In this document: positions 22,180 to 38,624 of the stretch, piece by piece
Layout of the letters: every line of letters begins with the position of its first letter
How positions within the stretch are numbered: position 1 is the first letter of the stretch
DNA from: Synechococcus sp. MU1642
Lineage (GTDB): Bacteria; Cyanobacteriota; Cyanobacteriia; PCC-6307; Cyanobiaceae
DNA length: 38,624 nt
Assembly (NCBI RefSeq): GCF_020514115.1
Contig: NZ_VTKZ01000015.1
Span: 1 to 38,624 of the forward strand
Direction: 5' to 3'
Translations under genes and position numbers: made by a program
The notes under the pieces: generated by a model
The model's database searches: none
What the model was told of the DNA's origin: nothing
What the model saw: the letters and a program-made list of their open reading frames with translations, nothing else

Positions 22180-23349
22180 TCAGGCGGCGACCGTGCTGGC
22201 TTGAATCAGGTCGGAATAGAGCTGTTCGAGAGCGTCGATGTTGCTTGAAATCGTGTAGCGCTCCAGGGCGCGGAGTCGGGCTTTGCGGCCCAGTTCAGCC
22301 GTTAGCACCGGCTGGTCCCTGAGCACCGGCAGCAGCGTGCGTAACTGGGTGGTGACGCCCTGGGTACTCAGCACGATTCCCGCCCCTTGCTCCAGCACCT
22401 CGCCATCGGCACCGGCATCGGTGGCCACGCATGCTGTTCCGGTGGCCATCGCCTCCAGTAAGGCCAGTGACAGGCCCTCTACAAGGCTTGGCAGGATGAA
22501 GACCTCAGCGCACTGGAGCAGGGCAACCCGGGTGTCCAAGTTCGGCTCGTGGCCCCACCAGAGGATTCGATCTTCGTTGAACTGGTTCATCAGGCTGTTG
22601 CGCAGCGGGCCGTCGCCGACGATCACCAACCGACAGCCTTCCGGTGAGACCAGACGCCATGCCCGCAGCAGGGCTTCAACGTTCTTCTCCGTTGCCAGGC
22701 GCCCCATGTAGAGGAAGATCCGTTCTCGGCCCAGCCGCTGCCGAACCTGTTGATGCATCAGTGAAAGGGTGCCGGGGCTAGTGGGGCACCAGCGGTCAGT
22801 GTCCACACCATTGGGAATCACCGTCAGACGATCGGCTGGAACGCCGAGGCGCTCGAGAAAATCCGCCTGAAGCTGTGAAAACACGATCACCCGCTCATAG
22901 CGAGCCAGGGCCGGTGCATACAGCTGGTAGGTGAGCTGTTGGGTGCCCGCCGTCAGGTTGCGCAGGCCTGCATCGAAGGGAGGATGAAAGGTGGCGACCA
23001 GGGGCACGCCCAATTGCTGGCAGAGCTCCGGCAGGCGGAAATCCAGGGGCGAAAGGGTGAGGCTGGCGTGCACCAGGTCGGGCTGCAGCCGCTCCAGGGA
23101 TTCCCGCAGCTCCCGCTGCGCTCCTGGTGAAGGGATTGTGTAGACCTGCGATTTGACCAGATAGGGCAGGCTGACGTCCGGGTCGTTAGCCAGCAGAGAT
23201 GTGTTGTCGCGCTCTGGGCTGCGCGGATTATCGAAATGGATGAAGTGCACCTGATGCCCGCGTTTTCGCAGGGCTTCCGTGGTGCTGATCCCGTAGGACA
23301 CATTCCCGCAGAAGGGAGCCTTCTTGCCGAGCCACGCAATCTGCGCCAA
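22180..23349 (-). CDS. GT4-family glycosyltransferase
   Basis: A 389-residue GT-B enzyme of family 4. N-terminal features are GNVSYGISTTEALRKRGHQV (acceptor side) and DLVHASLTLSPLDFRLPEL. The C-terminal donor domain has RIFLYMGRLATEKNVEALLR, VIVGDGPLRNSL, and the E-x7-E motif LPSLVEGLSLALLEAMATG that holds the nucleotide sugar. The HFIHFDNPRSP opening and linear layout recall BshA- and SqdX-like enzymes, but the substrate is not clear from sequence. It lies 32 bp downstream of the MFS transporter on the same strand; the pair may export and build a glycolipid or pigment glycoside. Confidence 0.82.
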   Translation of the reverse strand: MAQIAWLGKKAPFCGNVSYGISTTEALRKRGHQVHFIHFDNPRSPERDNTSLLANDPDVSLPYLVKSQVYTIPSPGAQRELRESLERLQPDLVHASLTLSPLDFRLPELCQQLGVPLVATFHPPFDAGLRNLTAGTQQLTYQLYAPALARYERVIVFSQLQADFLERLGVPADRLTVIPNGVDTDRWCPTSPGTLSLMHQQVRQRLGRERIFLYMGRLATEKNVEALLRAWRLVSPEGCRLVIVGDGPLRNSLMNQFNEDRILWWGHEPNLDTRVALLQCAEVFILPSLVEGLSLALLEAMATGTACVATDAGADGEVLEQGAGIVLSTQGVTTQLRTLLPVLRDQPVLTAELGRKARLRALERYTISSNIDALEQLYSDLIQASTVAA

Positions 23350-23381
23350 GCGGGTTGGGCCTCCTCAGGCGAAACGGCAAG

Positions 23382-24761
23382 TTAGCAGCGTTGCCACGGT
23401 CGCTCGATCATCGCCGCCACCAGCGCCAACCCTGCCAGCAGCCACAGCACCGGTTGAAGACCGATGCTGCTCACCAAGGTGCCTGCCAGCACCAGCGGCA
23501 GACTCAGGGCGATGTTGATCAAGTTGTTCTGAAGCCCGAACACCCTGCCGCGCTCGGTTTCGGGGGTCTCTTCTTGAATTGTGGTCTGCGCTGGTATCGC
23601 TACCAGAGCTGCTCCAATGCCGAGGATGCCGCAGAGGCTCAGGGTGAAGGGCAGAGATCCCCGCAGTTGGCTGAGCAGCACCAAGGTCCAGGTGATGGTT
23701 CCAAGGCCTGCTGCCGTTAGTCGGCGGCGGCTGAACCGATGGCCCAGCTGGGCGATCACCACGGCTCCGATCGCCATGCCCAGACCACTCATCGCGAGCA
23801 GGGCACCAAAGCCTGAAGCCCCCAGGTTGTCGATCAGGGCCGCCAGTTGGAGCGCTAACACGTAGAGCGCTGCCAACAGGCTGTATAGAAGCACCAGGTG
23901 AATCATGGCGCCGCGAACCGACGGCACCCGGCGCAGCACCTGCAATCCTTCGCCGATCTCCGCCCACACCGATGTGTTGGAGGCGGGCTTTGGGGCTTCC
24001 TGCAGCTTCAGGCGCGACAGGCTGAGGGCCGCGAGGCCGTAGCAGAGAGGTAGCAGCAGAAACTCGCCGCCATCGATGCCGAGGATCGCCAGGCTGCTGT
24101 GCAGGGCGCGAAGAATCGGTTCCCCCAGGGCGAAGCCCAGGATCGTGGCCCCCATGCTGGTGGCTTGGTAGAGGGAGTTGGCTGCCAACAGGTGTTCTCC
24201 CGGCACCACCACAGGAATTGTGGCCTGTTCCGAGGGGGCAAAAAACTGGGTCAGGATCGACTCCAGGAAGGTCATGCCCACTAGCCCCCAGTAGCCCCAG
24301 GGGAGACCAAGCCAGACGGGCCCTGGCAGAAGACATAGCGGTGCGAACACCACCAACAGGGCTCGTACGGCATTGCTGGCCACCATCACCCGACGCTTGG
24401 GCCAGCGGTCAGCCCAGACCCCAGCCACCGTTCCCAGCAGCATGGCCGGGATGGTGTTCGCCACAAAGATGCCTGTGGCGAGCAGGGTGATCACCTGGGT
24501 GCGCGTGCTGATGTCAAGGCCGTAACCCGACGCCATTTCCGCCAGCACGCCACTTCCCTGCCCCCTCAGCAGCAAGTGCTGATCGATCAGGAAGACCATC
24601 AGCACGATGTAAAACTTGTCCGCCAGCTGGGAAAAGATCTGGCCCAGCCAGAGTTTTCGGAAGTCGTTGAGGCGAAGCACGGCTTCCAAGCCGCGCTTCC
24701 CCTCCGGATTGCTGCCGGTGGGCAGAGCGGGTTCAGGGGTGGTGAGGCTGGGTCCGCTCAA
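23382..24761 (-). CDS. MFS transporter
   Basis: A 459-residue polytopic protein with about 12 helices, opening with a polar N-terminus and LRLNDFRKLWLGQIFSQLAD, the first-helix pattern of DHA3/EntS-type MFS exporters. A loop GVWADRWPKRRVMVASN after helix 2 is the MFS A-motif variant. The C-terminal half includes HRFSRRRLTAAGLGTI and EETPETERGRVFGLQNNL, also typical. The start is TTG at 24761; no ATG lies nearby in frame. Export of a small molecule or drug is the family theme; the cargo is unknown. It is probably cotranscribed with the GT4 gene. Confidence 0.82.
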   Translation of the reverse strand: MSGPSLTTPEPALPTGSNPEGKRGLEAVLRLNDFRKLWLGQIFSQLADKFYIVLMVFLIDQHLLLRGQGSGVLAEMASGYGLDISTRTQVITLLATGIFVANTIPAMLLGTVAGVWADRWPKRRVMVASNAVRALLVVFAPLCLLPGPVWLGLPWGYWGLVGMTFLESILTQFFAPSEQATIPVVVPGEHLLAANSLYQATSMGATILGFALGEPILRALHSSLAILGIDGGEFLLLPLCYGLAALSLSRLKLQEAPKPASNTSVWAEIGEGLQVLRRVPSVRGAMIHLVLLYSLLAALYVLALQLAALIDNLGASGFGALLAMSGLGMAIGAVVIAQLGHRFSRRRLTAAGLGTITWTLVLLSQLRGSLPFTLSLCGILGIGAALVAIPAQTTIQEETPETERGRVFGLQNNLINIALSLPLVLAGTLVSSIGLQPVLWLLAGLALVAAMIERPWQRC

Positions 24762-24789
24762 GGGGCAATTGCATCGCGGCCATGATGGC

Positions 24790-25563
24790 TCACGCGCCTG
24801 CCAGCAGCGTCTCTCGCAGCATGGCCAGGGCTTTGCTGGGTCGGTTCAGATGCGTCCGGCTCCAGATCTCGACCAACCGCAGCAGTCGGCTCCATACGGC
24901 TGGGGGGCCCATCAGCTCCCCATCCCGGCGACGGGGCAGTTCGGCCCTAGTCAGTCGCTGCAGTAGGGCCAGTTCGGAGGGATTCAGCTGGATCGCAGCC
25001 CCAGGCTGCTCATCGATCGCAAACCCGTCCTGTGGCAGCAGGCTGCAGCGCCAGTCCCACTGCCCCAGCGGTGGGTCCAGGGGATCGCCCGTGATGCAGC
25101 AGGTCTGCAACGGCAGTCCATAACCGCCCAGGGTGAGCAGATGGATGCAGGCTTGGACCGTGCAGGCCAGCACCAGCTCCGGGTCGGCTCGGTGCTCCTC
25201 CAGGCGTTCCAGATGCAGCTGCATCGTGGCAAGCAGCCCCTCCACGGGGTCCTGGGCCGCCAGTTGAAGGCACAGATCACACAGGGCCTGCGCCGCAGCC
25301 AGGGTTTCCAGCTGTTGTCCGAGGCCTGAAAAACTGCGCAGCACCCGCAGTTGTCGCACCCGGGTCAGGCCACTGCGTCCTCCTACCTGCAGTTCCAGCA
25401 GGGTGAGGGGGGCCGCGGCGGCCAGACTGCTCTTGGGACGGCGTGCTCCGGGAACGGCGAAGCGACTAACGCCCTCCGCATCACTGAGCAGGCTCAGCAG
25501 GCGGTCGTGCTCGCCGAGGGGGCCTACCTTGAGGGCGAGTCCGGTGAGGCGTCGTTCTGCCAT
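24790..25563 (-). CDS. recO: DNA repair protein RecO
   Basis: A 257-residue protein opening MAERRLTGLALKVGPLGEHD, then RLLSLLSDAEG, the OB-fold that binds ssDNA, followed by KSSLAAAAPLTLLELQVGGR and a helical domain with TLAAAQALCDLCLQLA. RecO loads RecA onto SSB-coated ssDNA with RecR. The ATG immediately follows the deoC stop (TGAATG), so the two are translationally coupled. The pair lies behind hpf on the minus strand. Confidence 0.88.
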   Translation of the reverse strand: MAERRLTGLALKVGPLGEHDRLLSLLSDAEGVSRFAVPGARRPKSSLAAAAPLTLLELQVGGRSGLTRVRQLRVLRSFSGLGQQLETLAAAQALCDLCLQLAAQDPVEGLLATMQLHLERLEEHRADPELVLACTVQACIHLLTLGGYGLPLQTCCITGDPLDPPLGQWDWRCSLLPQDGFAIDEQPGAAIQLNPSELALLQRLTRAELPRRRDGELMGPPAVWSRLLRLVEIWSRTHLNRPSKALAMLRETLLAGA

Positions 25564-30095: not shown

Positions 30096-30131
30096 TTGGC
30101 GACCACGGACATCTTCATGACCCAGTCCTAG
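30096..30131 (+). pseudogene. pdhC: 5' fragment of pyruvate dehydrogenase E2 gene (pdhC), cut by the inserted element
   Basis: A TTG start at 30096, six bases after GGAG (30086-30089), opens MATTDIFM and then reads TQS and a stop. Cyanobacterial pyruvate dehydrogenase E2 (dihydrolipoamide acetyltransferase) begins MATHDIFMPALSSTM as I remember it, and it follows a YlqD-like gene in picocyanobacteria. So the promoter, ribosome site and first eight codons are kept and the rest is displaced. The break lies just after the ATG at 30117-30119. The remainder should sit at the far end of the element, outside the window. The homology is from memory and only eight residues long; the good ribosome site supports it. 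Confidence 0.65.
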
Positions 30132-30155: not shown

Positions 30156-30236
30156 TGTTGGACACGAGGTTGCAGGAGAACTAAACTTTGCTCCAGCAAC
30201 TCATCTTGCCCCTCTGCTGGACAAGGTGTTGGACAC
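30156..30236 (+). repeat. paired 10-bp direct repeats between the junction and the integrase
   Basis: TGTTGGACAC occurs at 30156-30165 and again at 30227-30236, 71 bases apart. Directly repeated short sites between an attachment site and an integrase gene are where arm-type binding sites usually lie. Two copies alone are weak evidence. Confidence 0.4.
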
Positions 30237-30241
30237 TCGGG

Positions 30242-31684
30242 ATGCCCAAACTCCATTCCAAGGAACCAACTCTTAATGGGCGTGCATACATTTGCGCCTA
30301 TGCAGATCGTGAGTATCTGTATTTGCGGATTCCGATTGGTAATCGCAAATACTCAAATATCTCTTTGCAGACTACGGATATAAAGGTTGCACATGACAAA
30401 GCGCTTGACGTTTATACAAAGGCAGTAAATACACCAGCAAAGAAGAGATCAAAAAAACATCTCTTTACTACTGCATGCGAAAACTTTTTACGTTATAAAG
30501 TTGAGCAGGCGGAAATCGGACAGATAACTTCTGGGACGGTAGCAACTTACGAACAACGCATCTATCAACGTATCTTGCCTTATGTAAAAGAGATTGGAAT
30601 CAAACTCGTTGGTGATATCGGTAAAGATACTTTTATCAAATATGCAACTTACTATCGTCAGGTAAAGACAAAAGGAAAGTGGAGCACAGCATCTAAAGGA
30701 CTTGCTGTGTCAACCATCAATAGCGATATCACCACGCTCAACGAACTTTTGGCATGGTGTGTTCAGAATGAATTACTAGAATTTCGTGTATGGAAAAAGA
30801 TAGAAAAACTGAGGGACAAGAAGGATCATAGAGAAGACTCCAATCCTGCATACATGCCTGATGAATGGGAGCAAATAAAGAAAACTATTATTGATTGGGA
30901 GAGCGGTGAGTCGGATTCAGTTAGGAAGTGGAAGAGGCGCTGGTATAAGAACTGGTTGTTTTTCATGTATCACGGTGGATTTAGGTGCCATGAAACTAGG
31001 GCACTTACTCTTGCTGATATTGATGTTGTCCGGAGAAATGGAAAGGTTCGATGGGGTATAGTACAGGTGCCATCAAACACTAAGACTGGTAAGAGAACAA
31101 CAATAATGAATGGCAACTGGTTGAATTCCGTGAAGTATCACCTGAATGTAGGCATTAAACTTCGCAATCAACAAATTGAACAGCACAATAAAAAAGTAGA
31201 AGAAGGGACTTTGGAAAGGTGGAGAGCATGTAAAACCAAGATTGAGATGCTGGAGTTTCCACCAAAAATGGATACCCCATTAATGGCAAATCCATTTGGT
31301 TATTTGATCAAGGCACCAGCAGGAGCAGATAAAACTTACCAGTGGTTGACTGAGCATGATATTGATTTCTCTTGGCATGCCAAAGTTGATATGACACCAC
31401 CCACGGATGAAACCGTTAGGCAAAAACTAGATTCTATCTTTAAGCATTTAGAGTTTTACCAGAAGAAGGATTACACCCTGCATTCCTTGCGCTCAACTCA
31501 CATTACGCATGCTCTGATTCTTAAAGATATGAACATCAGGCAGATTGCTGACAACGTTGGAAACTCCCAATCTGAAATCGAGTCCACTTACTACAGATTG
31601 AACAACTTGCTGAACATGGAAAAACTTGGTTTCTTCAAGGATGAGTTGGAGAAGAAGGAAGAACTGGTTGTGGAAGAGTCCTGA
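30242..31684 (+). CDS. tyrosine recombinase (integrase)
   Basis: A 480-residue site-specific recombinase. Catalytic residues: box I Arg248 in HGGFRCHETRALTL, a KTGKR beta-hairpin Lys (281 or 284), box II HSLR (His414, Arg417) in YTLHSLRSTHITHAL, and Tyr450 or 451 in ESTYYRLNN. The family's second His/Trp before the Tyr appears as Asn441 (VGNSQSEIESTY). Residues 60-190 are the SAM-like DNA-binding domain; the N-terminus is small and strand-rich, like an arm-binding domain. The open frame starts 18 codons earlier, but MPKLHSKEPTL at 30242 reads as the real start. AT-rich codon use contrasts with the high-GC flank, marking recent transfer. It should mediate insertion into the pdhC start. Confidence 0.9.
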   Translation: MPKLHSKEPTLNGRAYICAYADREYLYLRIPIGNRKYSNISLQTTDIKVAHDKALDVYTKAVNTPAKKRSKKHLFTTACENFLRYKVEQAEIGQITSGTVATYEQRIYQRILPYVKEIGIKLVGDIGKDTFIKYATYYRQVKTKGKWSTASKGLAVSTINSDITTLNELLAWCVQNELLEFRVWKKIEKLRDKKDHREDSNPAYMPDEWEQIKKTIIDWESGESDSVRKWKRRWYKNWLFFMYHGGFRCHETRALTLADIDVVRRNGKVRWGIVQVPSNTKTGKRTTIMNGNWLNSVKYHLNVGIKLRNQQIEQHNKKVEEGTLERWRACKTKIEMLEFPPKMDTPLMANPFGYLIKAPAGADKTYQWLTEHDIDFSWHAKVDMTPPTDETVRQKLDSIFKHLEFYQKKDYTLHSLRSTHITHALILKDMNIRQIADNVGNSQSEIESTYYRLNNLLNMEKLGFFKDELEKKEELVVEES

Positions 31685-32904: not shown

Positions 32905-33114
32905 TTAGCGGCAAACAGGGTTCCTAGCAATCACGCGTGCATGAGGGTTCCTTGCCATCGCTGCCCTTTCAGCGTCCTGGCGGTTGCTGGCAACGATTTC
33001 CTCCTTCCAGGTTTTTCCTCCTGAATAAAGGGTGATCTCCCATTTCCAGGTGCAAGACATGGCAGGTGCAGGAATAAAGAGCAGAAGGGCAACGAGGAGG
33101 GTTCTGTGCAGCAT
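32905..33114 (-). CDS. small secreted or periplasmic protein, 69 aa
   Basis: MLHRTLLVALLLFIPAPAMS is a signal peptide with an A-M-S cleavage, followed by a WKWEITLYSGGKTWKEEIVA strand pair, ending RNPHARVIARNPVCR. Two cysteines remain in the mature part (SC.., ..CR) and may bond. The ATG overlaps the serine-recombinase stop by one base (TGATG), so it is coupled to it. The function is unknown. Confidence 0.55.
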   Translation of the reverse strand: MLHRTLLVALLLFIPAPAMSCTWKWEITLYSGGKTWKEEIVASNRQDAERAAMARNPHARVIARNPVCR

Positions 33115-33701
33115 CAGGCAACTTCCTGCTGCTGCTGGATGATCCGACGGACCATGGATGTGGTCATGCCCATAGCGGAGGAGATGGTCCCGTAACCATC
33201 ACCTCTCTGACGCATCTCCATCACCGCTGCTGCCTGCTGTGGCGTGTAGGAGCGTTTCCGACCGAATTTGACCCCACGGGACTTGGCAACCTCTCTGCCT
33301 TCAGCAGTTCTCTTCTTGATGGATTTCAGTTCCATCTCGGCGGCGTAACCCATCACGCCAACCACCAACTTCACCAGTTCCTCTGGCATCGACGCTGTAT
33401 CCAGTCGACCGTCGAGCGTCTTGATGGCAACGCCTCGTTCAATCAGAGCGTTCACCTCCACCAGCATTTCCACCATGGAGCGACCTAGGCGGTCCAGTTC
33501 ATGGATCACCAGCGTGTCGCCATCACGGAGACCATCCAGGCATTTGCTCAGTTCAGGTCTTTCGCCATAAGCAGAGGTGCCGGCGATCTGGTCCCCGTAG
33601 ATCCGCTCGCAACCTGCTTCCCTCAGCGATTGCTCCTGGCGTTCGCTGTCCTGCTCGCTGGTGCTGGTCCTCCAATACCCCCAGGTCGCCATGAGTGCCA
33701 T
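33114..33701 (-). CDS. serine recombinase (resolvase/invertase family)
   Basis: A 195-residue small serine recombinase. The nucleophile Ser13 is in YWRTSTSEQ, with LVIHELDRLGRSMVEML and a GVMGYAAEMELKSIKKRTAEG helix, the E-helix of the dimer. A C-terminal helix-turn-helix (KRSYTPQQAAAVMEMR, then YGTISSAMGMTTSMVRRI) completes the Hin/Tn3 resolvase layout. ATG at 33701 or 33692. It sits downstream of a palindrome-rich stretch at 33712-33796. It may resolve dimers or flip DNA, or form a stability module. Confidence 0.88.
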   Translation of the reverse strand: MALMATWGYWRTSTSEQDSERQEQSLREAGCERIYGDQIAGTSAYGERPELSKCLDGLRDGDTLVIHELDRLGRSMVEMLVEVNALIERGVAIKTLDGRLDTASMPEELVKLVVGVMGYAAEMELKSIKKRTAEGREVAKSRGVKFGRKRSYTPQQAAAVMEMRQRGDGYGTISSAMGMTTSMVRRIIQQQQEVA

Positions 33702-33711
33702 GCCGAATCTC

Positions 33712-33796
33712 TGCCGAAACTATAGTGCATTTCGGCATGGATTTCCGACATGCCCAGAAACCAGTTGTGGCGGTTTGGCAATTGCCATGTCGGAAA
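33712..33796. promoter_or_regulatory. palindrome-rich region upstream of the serine recombinase (res-like or operator)
   Basis: TGCCGAAA/TTTCGGCA (33712-33719 and 33730-33737) flank a spacer containing TATAGT, so a promoter element sits inside the first dyad. A second, 11-bp pair, TTTCCGACATG/CATGTCGGAAA, lies at 33742-33752 and 33786-33796 around a 33-bp gap. Resolvase genes usually sit beside their own recombination site and are self-repressed there. Confidence 0.6.
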
Positions 33797-33856
33797 GCGA
33801 AAGTTTCGACACCCCTGAAATGACTGCACACTTGGTCAAGGTTGAACCTCTGATTG

Positions 33857-34984
33857 ATGGCGTGGGCATTCCGTAAGCGCATCAAGGTCATTCCTGGCGT
33901 CTACATCAACCTCAGCAAGAGCGGCATCAGCGCCAATACGGGTGTCAGGGGTGCCTCCCTGACATTCAGGTCAGATGGCGTTTATCGGAACCTTGGTCTT
34001 CCTGGAACGGGCATCTACAGCAGGCAAAAGGTTGGTGACTATGGCGGTAGTGCGCGAGATGAAGGCACCGATCAGGAGTTCGCTCCTGATGAAGCATTTG
34101 AAGTCGCGGCACCTGATTACTCCTTCATTAGTGCCGACCCTCTTGAGGTCACCAGCGATGGACTTCAAGGACTCCAGCAGGCAGTCATAGATGCAAATCG
34201 GCAAAAGCAAGAACTGACCCGTGATGCTGAGTCGATCAAGGGTTCCCTGTCTCTCCTGCGTCTTGGGGAGGTCCTGTCCAAGGTCTGCCTGATCTACTGC
34301 TTCGTGCCCTCCCTCAAAAGGAGCATCCAGGCAGGAATCAAGGGGCGACAGGATGCTCTTAAAGAGGTGACGGAATCCATCGCGGCATCTGCGGTTTCGC
34401 TCGCGGTGGAGATGGATGCTGATTGCAGTTCTGCCTATCAAAAGGTTCAAGGCACCTTCGATGCACTCACCCGTTGCTCCTGCATCTGGGATGTCACCTC
34501 AGGGAGTGATGTCGATCGGGTTCAATCTCGCTCCGCTGCTTCGATGAGCGTTGAGCGGTCGATCACAAAGTGCCTACGCAAGGACCTTCCAGGCATCACT
34601 TCTTCTGAAACTCCCCTGGTCTTTCTGAATCGGAACGGAGCAGACATATATGTGTATCCGGGATTCTTCGTGATGTTTGAATCTCCATCCCGTATGGGCA
34701 TCCTCGATATTTCAGAACTAGAAGTCAATTTCGAGGCAACCCGATTTATCGAGACGGACACAACGCCTTCTGATAGCAAGCGAGTTGGAGAGGTCTGGGA
34801 GAAATCGAATAAGGACGGTAGTAGAGACAAGCGTTTTGCAGAAAATCGGCAGTTCCCAGTAATGGAATACGGCGAGATTACTTTCAAGTCTGCGTCGGGA
34901 ATATACGAAAAATATATGTTCAGTAACGCCAGGGCGTCGGAAGATTTCTTCAACGCTTTGCAGGCGCTTAAGGATCTTCTGTAG
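33857..34984 (+). CDS. DUF4236 domain protein
   Basis: The N-terminal about 60 residues, AFRKRIKVIPGVYINLSKSG, then ASLTFRSDGVYRNLGLPGTG, are a clear DUF4236 domain, a short beta-rich unit often found on bacterial and phage proteins of unknown role. The remaining 310 residues hold a helical section with AVIDANRQKQELTRDAESIK, then mixed sheet. No catalytic motif is seen. TTG at 33854 precedes by one codon; ATG at 33857 is used. It overlaps the convergent K+ channel gene by 17 bp. DUF4236 proteins often sit in phage or defence islands. Confidence 0.72.
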   Translation: MAWAFRKRIKVIPGVYINLSKSGISANTGVRGASLTFRSDGVYRNLGLPGTGIYSRQKVGDYGGSARDEGTDQEFAPDEAFEVAAPDYSFISADPLEVTSDGLQGLQQAVIDANRQKQELTRDAESIKGSLSLLRLGEVLSKVCLIYCFVPSLKRSIQAGIKGRQDALKEVTESIAASAVSLAVEMDADCSSAYQKVQGTFDALTRCSCIWDVTSGSDVDRVQSRSAASMSVERSITKCLRKDLPGITSSETPLVFLNRNGADIYVYPGFFVMFESPSRMGILDISELEVNFEATRFIETDTTPSDSKRVGEVWEKSNKDGSRDKRFAENRQFPVMEYGEITFKSASGIYEKYMFSNARASEDFFNALQALKDLL

Positions 34985-36821: not shown

Positions 36822-37072
36822 GTGTCCTAGATGAACTGACGGGAAGGCGTCCTCATCAGTAGTTCCCGTGGAAAACCGTTGCGACGACTGACGCCAGCGA
36901 ACAAGTGAACAACGCAAGCAGGGCGAACTCCATAAGGGTTTGTTTGAGGTGTTCCCCTGTGATGCCTCTGGTCGCAGCAGAGGTGTCGTAGTGGTCCGCA
37001 CCAGAAGTCGCTGATGAGCGGTTCTACCGATGGCGGCGGGTTTGTTACGGGGCGAACATAAAAGGGCATCAT

Positions 37073-37126
37073 CCGTAAAGGGATGAATGCGTCGAATAGA
37101 GCAGAGGGTGGGACCTCTGCTTTTTC
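37073..37126 (+). ncRNA. structured unit 1: conserved motif plus GTGGGA-loop hairpin
   Basis: CCGTAAAGGG, then GAATGCGTCGAA, then a hairpin GCAGAGG/CCTCTGC with loop GTGGGA and a T-run. It is one of four related units. It may be a small RNA with its own terminator, or a terminator module with a conserved upstream motif. Confidence 0.55.
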
Positions 37127-37207
37127 TTGGGTTGCTGACCCCAGTAGTCGTTTGGTCGTAACCGCGACGACCAGTAGGTGAACCTCGCGTAATCCTTCGG
37201 ATGCTTC

Positions 37208-37262
37208 TTCGGTGAAGGGGCAAATGCGTCGAACTGAGAGGGGGTGGGACCCCTCTTTTTTT
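37208..37262 (+). ncRNA. structured unit 2: same layout, different stem sequence
   Basis: TTCGGTGAAGGGG, then AAATGCGTCGAA, then AGAGGGG/CCCCTCT with the same GTGGGA loop, followed by seven T. The stem is changed at several positions relative to unit 1 while pairing is kept on both sides. Confidence 0.6.
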
Positions 37263-37311
37263 GGCAGTTCGTAAACGACGCCCACGGCACCCCTGATTGC
37301 CTGAAGAGGGT

Positions 37312-37359
37312 GGTGCTGCTGGCGAGTCCAGCACCTTCGACGCGTTCGTCCCCTTTTTT
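37312..37359 (+). terminator. two hairpins with T-run inside repeat copy 1
   Basis: GGTGCTG/CAGCACC (37312-37318 and 37329-37335), then a GACG/CGTC stem (37339-37350) followed by CCC and six T. The TTCGACGC at 37336-37343 is the exact reverse complement of GCGTCGAA in the units. Confidence 0.5.
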
Positions 37360-37361
37360 CT

Positions 37362-37386
37362 GGCGGCATTCCCTGCCGCCTTTTTT
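37362..37386 (+). terminator. terminator closing repeat copy 1
   Basis: GGCGGCA, loop TTCCC, TGCCGCC, six T. It is a strong seven-pair GC stem. Confidence 0.75.
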
Positions 37387-38312: not shown

Positions 38313-38367
38313 TCTGTAAGGGGGTGAATGCGTCGAACACAGGCAGAGGGTGGGACCTCTGCTTTTT
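38313..38367 (+). ncRNA. structured unit 3
   Basis: CTGTAAGGGGG, then GAATGCGTCGAA, then GCAGAGG, loop GTGGGA, CCTCTGC and a T-run. The stem matches unit 1, while the bases between motif and stem differ. Confidence 0.55.
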
Positions 38368-38449
38368 CTTGGTTGCCTCACACCAGGGACTTTTTGTTGT
38401 GACGGCGACGACCCGTAGGTATTTCTTCCGTCATCTTCGATTCGTTCCC

Positions 38450-38504
38450 TTCGGTGAGGGGACGATGCGTCGTACTGAGAGGGGGTGGGACCCCTCTTTT
38501 TTTT
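38450..38504 (+). ncRNA. structured unit 4
   Basis: TTCGGTGAGGGG, then CGATGCGTCGTA, then AGAGGGG, loop GTGGGA, CCCCTCT and eight T. The stem matches unit 2; the motif has one change (GTCGAA to GTCGTA). Confidence 0.55.
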
Positions 38505-38624
38505 GGCAGTTCGTAAACGACGCCCACGGCACCCCTGATTGCCTGAAGAGGGTGGTGCTGCTGGCGAGTCCAGCACCTTCGACGCGTTCGTCCCCTTTTT
38601 TCTGGCGGCATTCCCTGCCGCCTT

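Follow-up and report, generated by a model that had tools for sequence, protein, structure and literature searches.

A conserved half-site array beside a serine resolvase gene of Synechococcus sp. MU1642 as its probable res site and operator

Introduction

What does the DNA just upstream of a serine recombinase gene in Synechococcus sp. MU1642 do: is it the site at which the enzyme recombines, the operator through which it controls its own gene, or both? The original prediction, made from the letters of a stretch of 38,624 nucleotides (the window), named a candidate res site or operator at 33712-33796, where it saw two perfect inverted repeats of 8 and 11 bp, the first with a TATAGT inside it. 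We followed this up by sequence comparison. The results indicated that 33701-33813 probably serves the neighbouring serine resolvase both as res site and as operator; both readings find support in the sequence and they do not exclude each other, and it is the pairing of the repeats proposed at first that is unlikely to be the functional one.

Results

The resolvase and its neighbours

On the minus strand, the longest open reading frame of the recombinase spans 33114-33701. Judging by aligned relatives, translation starts at 33692 and probably yields a protein of 192 residues (Table 1). With a Resolvase domain, Ser10, the catalytic arginines and a C-terminal helix-turn-helix, it belongs to the small serine recombinases, and R8, S10, R45, R68 and R71 were invariant in eight aligned sequences (numbered as in gamma-delta resolvase). 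Comparison with the relative in G013 gave a dN of 0.054 and a dS of 1.15, indicating purifying selection on an intact catalytic protein. The best solved relatives were gamma-delta resolvase (94 bits), the invertase chain 4m6f (86.9), Tn3 resolvase (86.7) and 2r0q (72), the last of which is labelled Tn552 invertase bin3 in the table of matches and is, we assume, the Sin-site II structure. The DNA invertase family phrog_125 also matched (5.2e-50), and the family libraries lean towards invertase names. These names, and a score for 4m6f level with that of Tn3 resolvase, would suit an enzyme that inverts or swaps a segment between the present site and a second one.

No relatives of the protein were found among IMG/VR contigs by protein or by profile alignment, and plasmid and phage records gave only matches below 60% identity. 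The small open reading frame that follows is probably on the same transcript as the resolvase. Contig 5 of G000 (22866-25215; L002, L003, L039) holds another copy of the recombinase, which has 89% identity from residue 44 on and neither res nor N-terminus, and most of the module is missing from G004 (L047) through a deletion of about 2.5 kb.

The half-site array

Both repeats are present in the sequence: the inverted-repeat search returned the 8-bp pair TGCCGAAA (33712-33719) and TTTCGGCA (33730-33737) and the 11-bp pair TTTCCGACATG (33742-33752) and CATGTCGGAAA (33786-33796). TATAGT was confirmed as well, on the minus strand in the loop of the 8-bp repeat. The interval first proposed was too short, since the same half-site also occurs at 33701-33708 and 33804-33811, so that the array spans 33701-33813. 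Read from 33813 to 33701, in the sense of the recombinase, six half-sites close to TGYCGRAA (h1 to h6) lie upstream of the gene, and neither repeat as first paired amounts to one functional site: the 8-bp repeat consists of h4 and h5, and the 11-bp repeat pairs h3 with h2 across a spacer. A crossover-type dyad, TGTCGGAAAGCGAAAGTTTCGACA (33788-33811), had been overlooked. The arrangement is that of a res site, with an inverted crossover site and accessory half-sites at fixed spacing beside the gene. Sites I and II together cover 86 bp (33728-33813), the crossover point in site I is predicted at 33799/33800, and the pair h5/h6 is itself head-to-tail, like h3/h4. An accessory site II beside site I is the plan of a resolvase, which argues against an invertase; we know of no Hin-type site that has one.

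Promoters and terminators were sought in 33600-33950 and none were found, nor any full sigma-70 match; no Rfam family matched across the window at gathering thresholds, and no tRNA was found in it. Resolvase bound to the half-sites should repress its own gene, since the -10-like box falls between h4 and h5. This position of the box would also suit repeats that are an operator only, auto-repressing a recombinase that recombines another site or no longer recombines, as would the single array in the genome and the existence of broken or truncated relatives (a TAA in L006; contig 5 of G000). For repression, however, the distant 28-bp dyad at a fixed distance upstream of the box would be superfluous, yet it is conserved, and the retained catalytic residues and purifying selection also argue against an operator alone.

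Table 1. Features of the locus and of the element around it, in window coordinates
Feature	Position	Strand	Details
Serine recombinase (resolvase)	33114-33692	-	PF00239, E 2.9e-30; 192 aa from the start shared with relatives
Small ORF, start overlaps recombinase stop	32905-33114	-	Relative in G028 and G004
Site I	33786-33813	-	28 bp; inverted half-sites h1 (TGTCGAAA, 33804-33811) and h2 (TTCCGACA, 33788-33795)
Spacer, site I to site II	33753-33785	-	33 bp; partly conserved ACTG..TTCTT stretch
Site II	33728-33752	-	Head-to-tail half-sites h3 (TGTCGGAA) and h4 (TGCCGAAA); 13-bp period
TATAGT, -10-like box	33719-33724	-	Between h4 and h5; last base is the first base of h5
Extra half-sites	33701-33719	-	h5 (TTTCGGCA, 33712-33719) and h6 (ATTCGGCA, 33701-33708); direction opposite to h3/h4
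Divergent DUF4236 gene just beyond site I	33854-34984	+	PF14020; same neighbour in G028
Left att core of integrase element	30098-30112	+	15 bp; copies the start of a dihydrolipoamide-acetyltransferase-like gene
Tyrosine integrase adjoining att core	30188-31684	+	PF00589

Geometry and uniqueness of the array

Short repeats are common, with 19 inverted pairs in 601 bases, and the array could on that account consist of chance palindromes without function. We scored the agreement among four half-sites at the window's spacing, a consensus-free measure with a maximum of 60. The window scored 47, and the top score in 1,673,750 positions of first-order Markov sequence was 39. Across 334,750 positions of real DNA (the window and L001-L036), scores of at least 41 occurred at res positions only, the highest elsewhere being 40, at one position (L036 6164). 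The 2.12-Mb genome has just two matches to the pattern TGYCGRAAN6-12TTYCGRCA, one at 33712-33737 and one at 33788-33811, and none to a control pattern.

The original prediction had suggested looking for a second copy of the site elsewhere. Patterns and a profile found none in the window's genome; a genome-wide search for a 24-bp dyad with at most three mismatches returned 12 places, site I included, against 21 for a control pattern. With a single site per genome no recombination substrate is visible, and assembly in 22 contigs makes a collapsed identical second copy possible. A resolvase acting on multimers or tandem copies needs no second copy.

Conservation at related loci

Relatives of the recombinase occur in 17 of 34 congeneric genomes, several of them remnants or distant, and on six named contigs. 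The geometry was fixed from the window and 18 loci, the window included, were scored at a threshold of at least 38, leaving out L002 (which has lost its N-terminus), L022 (gene at a contig end), L032 (on the contig of L006) and, as remnants or distant recombinases, L003, L013-L019 and L024-L030. Twelve of the 18 loci (11 of the 17 others) reached the threshold, and the fitting sites lay 104-131 bases upstream of the conserved GYW codon. L005 fitted with the spacer 3 bp shorter and L035 with the spacer 10 bp longer; L006, L011, L012 and L023 did not fit. The additional 10 bp in L035 are about one helical turn, which counts for the res reading, and the spacer of G028, 3 bp shorter, breaks the helical phase, which counts against it.

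A later search covered 400 family genomes, 101 of them with a match at 1e-20 or better, and 30 loci were fetched, 20 of them new. L132-L137 and L140 repeat the first set; L138, L139 and L159 have the same half-sites as L033, L034 and L036 and were not counted as new, although 23 loci were scored. Upstream of the gene, 13 of the 20 new loci scored at least 37 and 11 at least 39; among 364 control windows taken from these loci, 2 reached 37 and none reached 39. L156 fits with one base less. Six of the 20 (L152, L154, L155, L157, L160 and L161) stayed below the threshold used here even with the spacer left free, and profile R1 matched weakly at some of these six. Two of them come from more distant genomes and have the res-like match in front of the recombinase in the opposite orientation (L157 2089-2183 and L160 2276-2363).

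The prediction was to be refuted if the repeats were not kept in related elements; the arrangement and spacing were kept at most related loci, not all, down to 42% recombinase identity. Within the window's group of five loci, 35 of 48 half-site columns were invariant against 16 of 66 other columns, the half-sites having been named after the sequence was seen; h5 had 4 of 8 and h6 had 6 of 8 invariant columns, and TATRRT was present in four of the five loci. Half-sites co-vary within a locus, with TGTCGAAA in the window's group, TGTATCRAAA in another and TGCCGTAA in G006, as one binding protein per locus predicts. G008 is an exception, its res and roughly the first 44 residues being of the first type and the rest of the protein of the second, a mixture that probably arose through homologous recombination. 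We rejected a reading of this break at about codon 44, and of the contig-5 truncation near the same codon, as site-specific events, since homologous recombination is enough to explain the break: around it, G008 and G030 are nearly identical in sequence. L031 (NZGT01000010.1), titled as a Spirochaeta sp. MAG and perhaps mis-binned, carries a group-A res and a resolvase that shares 87% identity with that of the window.

Profile searches

We ran a sequence-only profile from 13 loci over the 34 congeneric genomes, scoring at most 112 candidates per genome. The results showed ten matches below 1e-3, each of them immediately upstream of a recombinase gene and oriented like it, and the next best match was at 0.046. 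The training set included eight of the ten, and a ninth is almost the same as one of its loci. Among confident matches there is one res per resolvase, and no orphan match away from a recombinase was found among these candidates in the 34 genomes. No confident match accompanied the distant recombinases of G015, G021 and G030 contig 6. Profile R2 gave five matches below 1e-3 over 251 family genomes, all within the genus, and the 131-bp res region had no match in phage and plasmid records.

These searches bear on two of the alternatives. Chance palindromes are scarcely credible, since the conserved geometry, the uniqueness of the pattern, the profile matches, the Markov maximum and the control windows all speak against them. 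The plus strand of the window's site I equals site I of G008 (L007) in the recombinase sense at 24 of 24 bases and looks flipped, which counts for an invertase; the window's genome has no second site, however, and the 34 genomes (at most 112 candidates each) have no orphan confident match. A second inverted site nearby, of the Hin type, was not found in this draft assembly, where a copy may have collapsed. We consider an inverting or switching enzyme highly improbable.

The host element

GC content drops from about 0.63 to 0.42-0.44 at 30-33 kb and is 0.50-0.57 in the resolvase stretch. Seven of 34 genomes carry such an integrase next to the conserved acetyltransferase-like gene, and in three of these (the window's, G024 and G030) a resolvase of the same family lies within about 3.5 kb of it. 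Both att cores are present in G024 and G030, 5,689 and 5,976 bp apart, and the interval comprises integrase, res and resolvase, so that res and resolvase lie inside integrase elements in these two relatives. The right end of the window's element is off the contig, and the remainder of the acetyltransferase gene opens contig 15 of the assembly; the window's res likely belongs to the integrase element at 30098. The resolvase of G008 and the second one of G024 adjoin other integrases at another shared place, and no integrase related to four queries was found in 15 of 20 contexts.

Several observations concern the elements themselves. Where the dihydrolipoamide-acetyltransferase-like gene begins, the elements of G024 and G030 bring in an ATG in place of the TTG of the empty site. 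The G024 element that bears the resolvase also has a DruA-like gene (PF14236) and a sulfotransferase-like one (L044 6786-7691), and L042 and L043 are similar. Next to the second resolvase of G024, a 224-aa open reading frame (L045 11131-11802) without a family match has an HAH motif and might encode a replication initiator. The window also contains a repeat of about 310 bp, 87% identical, at 37072-37382 and 38313-38624 (the contig end), and similar sequence occurs in several congeners.

Site I as an edge of homology

We compared 26 pairs, drawn from 23 loci, whose recombinases share at least 75% identity. In 18 of the pairs the DNA alignment on the site I side stopped no more than 18 bp from the centre of site I. 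It continued for more than 1 kb past site I in three (window-G028, G030-G024 and L149-L153), ended inside the gene in two (G008-G030 and G008-G024) and ended at -26, -32 and +31 in the remaining three; L145 has only 48 bases on this side. Within the window's group, the score over the distal 100 bases was under the 99% shuffle level in 8 of 10 pairs, and all ten proximal scores were over it. The exceptions were window-G028, far above the level, and MED672-G008, just above it (25 against 24); over 400 bases window-G008 was also just above (26 against 24). These breaks at site I argue further against an operator alone, which we regard as unlikely.

L141 and L156 share a flank of 151 bp (71.5%) that ends exactly at site I, and their modules group with other relatives. 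This was the sole such recombinant among 29 loci, other shared flanks ending elsewhere, and it fits an exchange at site I without proving one. Our tentative suggestion, doubtful as it stands, is that site I may be a natural exchange point at which the resolvase joins unrelated flanks to its own module, by which islands of marine picocyanobacteria trade cargo on one side of that module, with the res promoter heading a reshuffled operon of small genes on the other. The breaks make resolvase-driven island shuffling directly testable.

The resolvase heads arrays of small open reading frames with overlapping stop and start codons (L141-L156, L142, L144 and L005; 32905-33114 in the window), and about seven families of these recur in altered order between strains. 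These arrays, on the side of the resolvase away from site I, also break sharply, for example at stop+200. Pfam gave no match for seven small frames of the downstream arrays and one of the window, and no recombination site was seen at the edges of the array frames; the arrays look cassette-like.

Proposed function of the array

As res site and operator, 33701-33813 would work as follows. Resolvase dimers would bind the inverted pair of site I and the head-to-tail pair of site II, the spacer would be bent, and two directly repeated copies of res would pair. Strands would then be exchanged at the centre of site I, cutting multimers or tandem copies of the host element to one, and bound resolvase would cover the -10-like box and repress both the resolvase gene and the small genes that follow. 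Binding, bending, the direction of the reaction, auto-repression and the natural substrate are what we infer from the array and the protein.

Discussion

The closest likeness in layout is to Sin. The resH of Sin is 86 bp long, with an inverted site I, a site II of head-to-tail repeats and a spacer occupied by a bending protein, and it needs no second regulatory dimer site (PMC2428073, PMC2764113). In the present array, sites I and II have the same length and the same inverted and head-to-tail pairs, the form of a Sin-type res, and Sin-like sites including that of beta recombinase share this type of layout. The differences lie in the protein, which is nearer to gamma-delta than to Sin and in the gamma-delta alignment shows only three extra residues, not the 11-residue insertion of Sin, where the C-terminal domain begins, and in the array, which has the extra pair h5/h6. 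A spacer of 33 bp, in which a bending protein might bind as in Sin, is present here.

Tn3 offers the second comparison. PMC9943657 gives Tn3 res as 114 bp with three dimer sites, describes site III as inverted and contrasts Sin site II with it. The likeness to Tn3 and gamma-delta extends to the protein family, the catalytic residues, the 28-bp site I and an overall array length of about 114 bp. In Tn3, sites II and III are inverted, whereas here h3/h4 is head-to-tail and h5/h6 faces it, so the array does not consist of three inverted dimer sites. Unlike Tn3, the elements of G024 and G030 had no transposase among the genes read.

As integrative islands, two further systems are comparable. On SGI1, a res system on an integrative island was shown to remove multimers (PMC12217951); the pairing of res and resolvase on such an island is probably shared with the present locus, and the res of SGI1 differs in being Tn3-like with three boxes. 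Tycheposons of marine picocyanobacteria, as described second-hand in PMC10872708, are cargo islands with tyrosine recombinases; the window's element differs from them in that it sits where a protein gene begins and not at a tRNA.

Searches of open-licence papers turned up no title or abstract that describes the present site. The locus points to a resolution system carried by integrative islands of marine cyanobacteria, and its combination of a gamma-delta-like protein, a Sin-like site and an extra half-site pair is new. Its res site and those of its relatives form a natural set in which Sin-like geometry goes with a gamma-delta-like resolvase, and with which one can ask which part of the protein dictates head-to-tail accessory sites.
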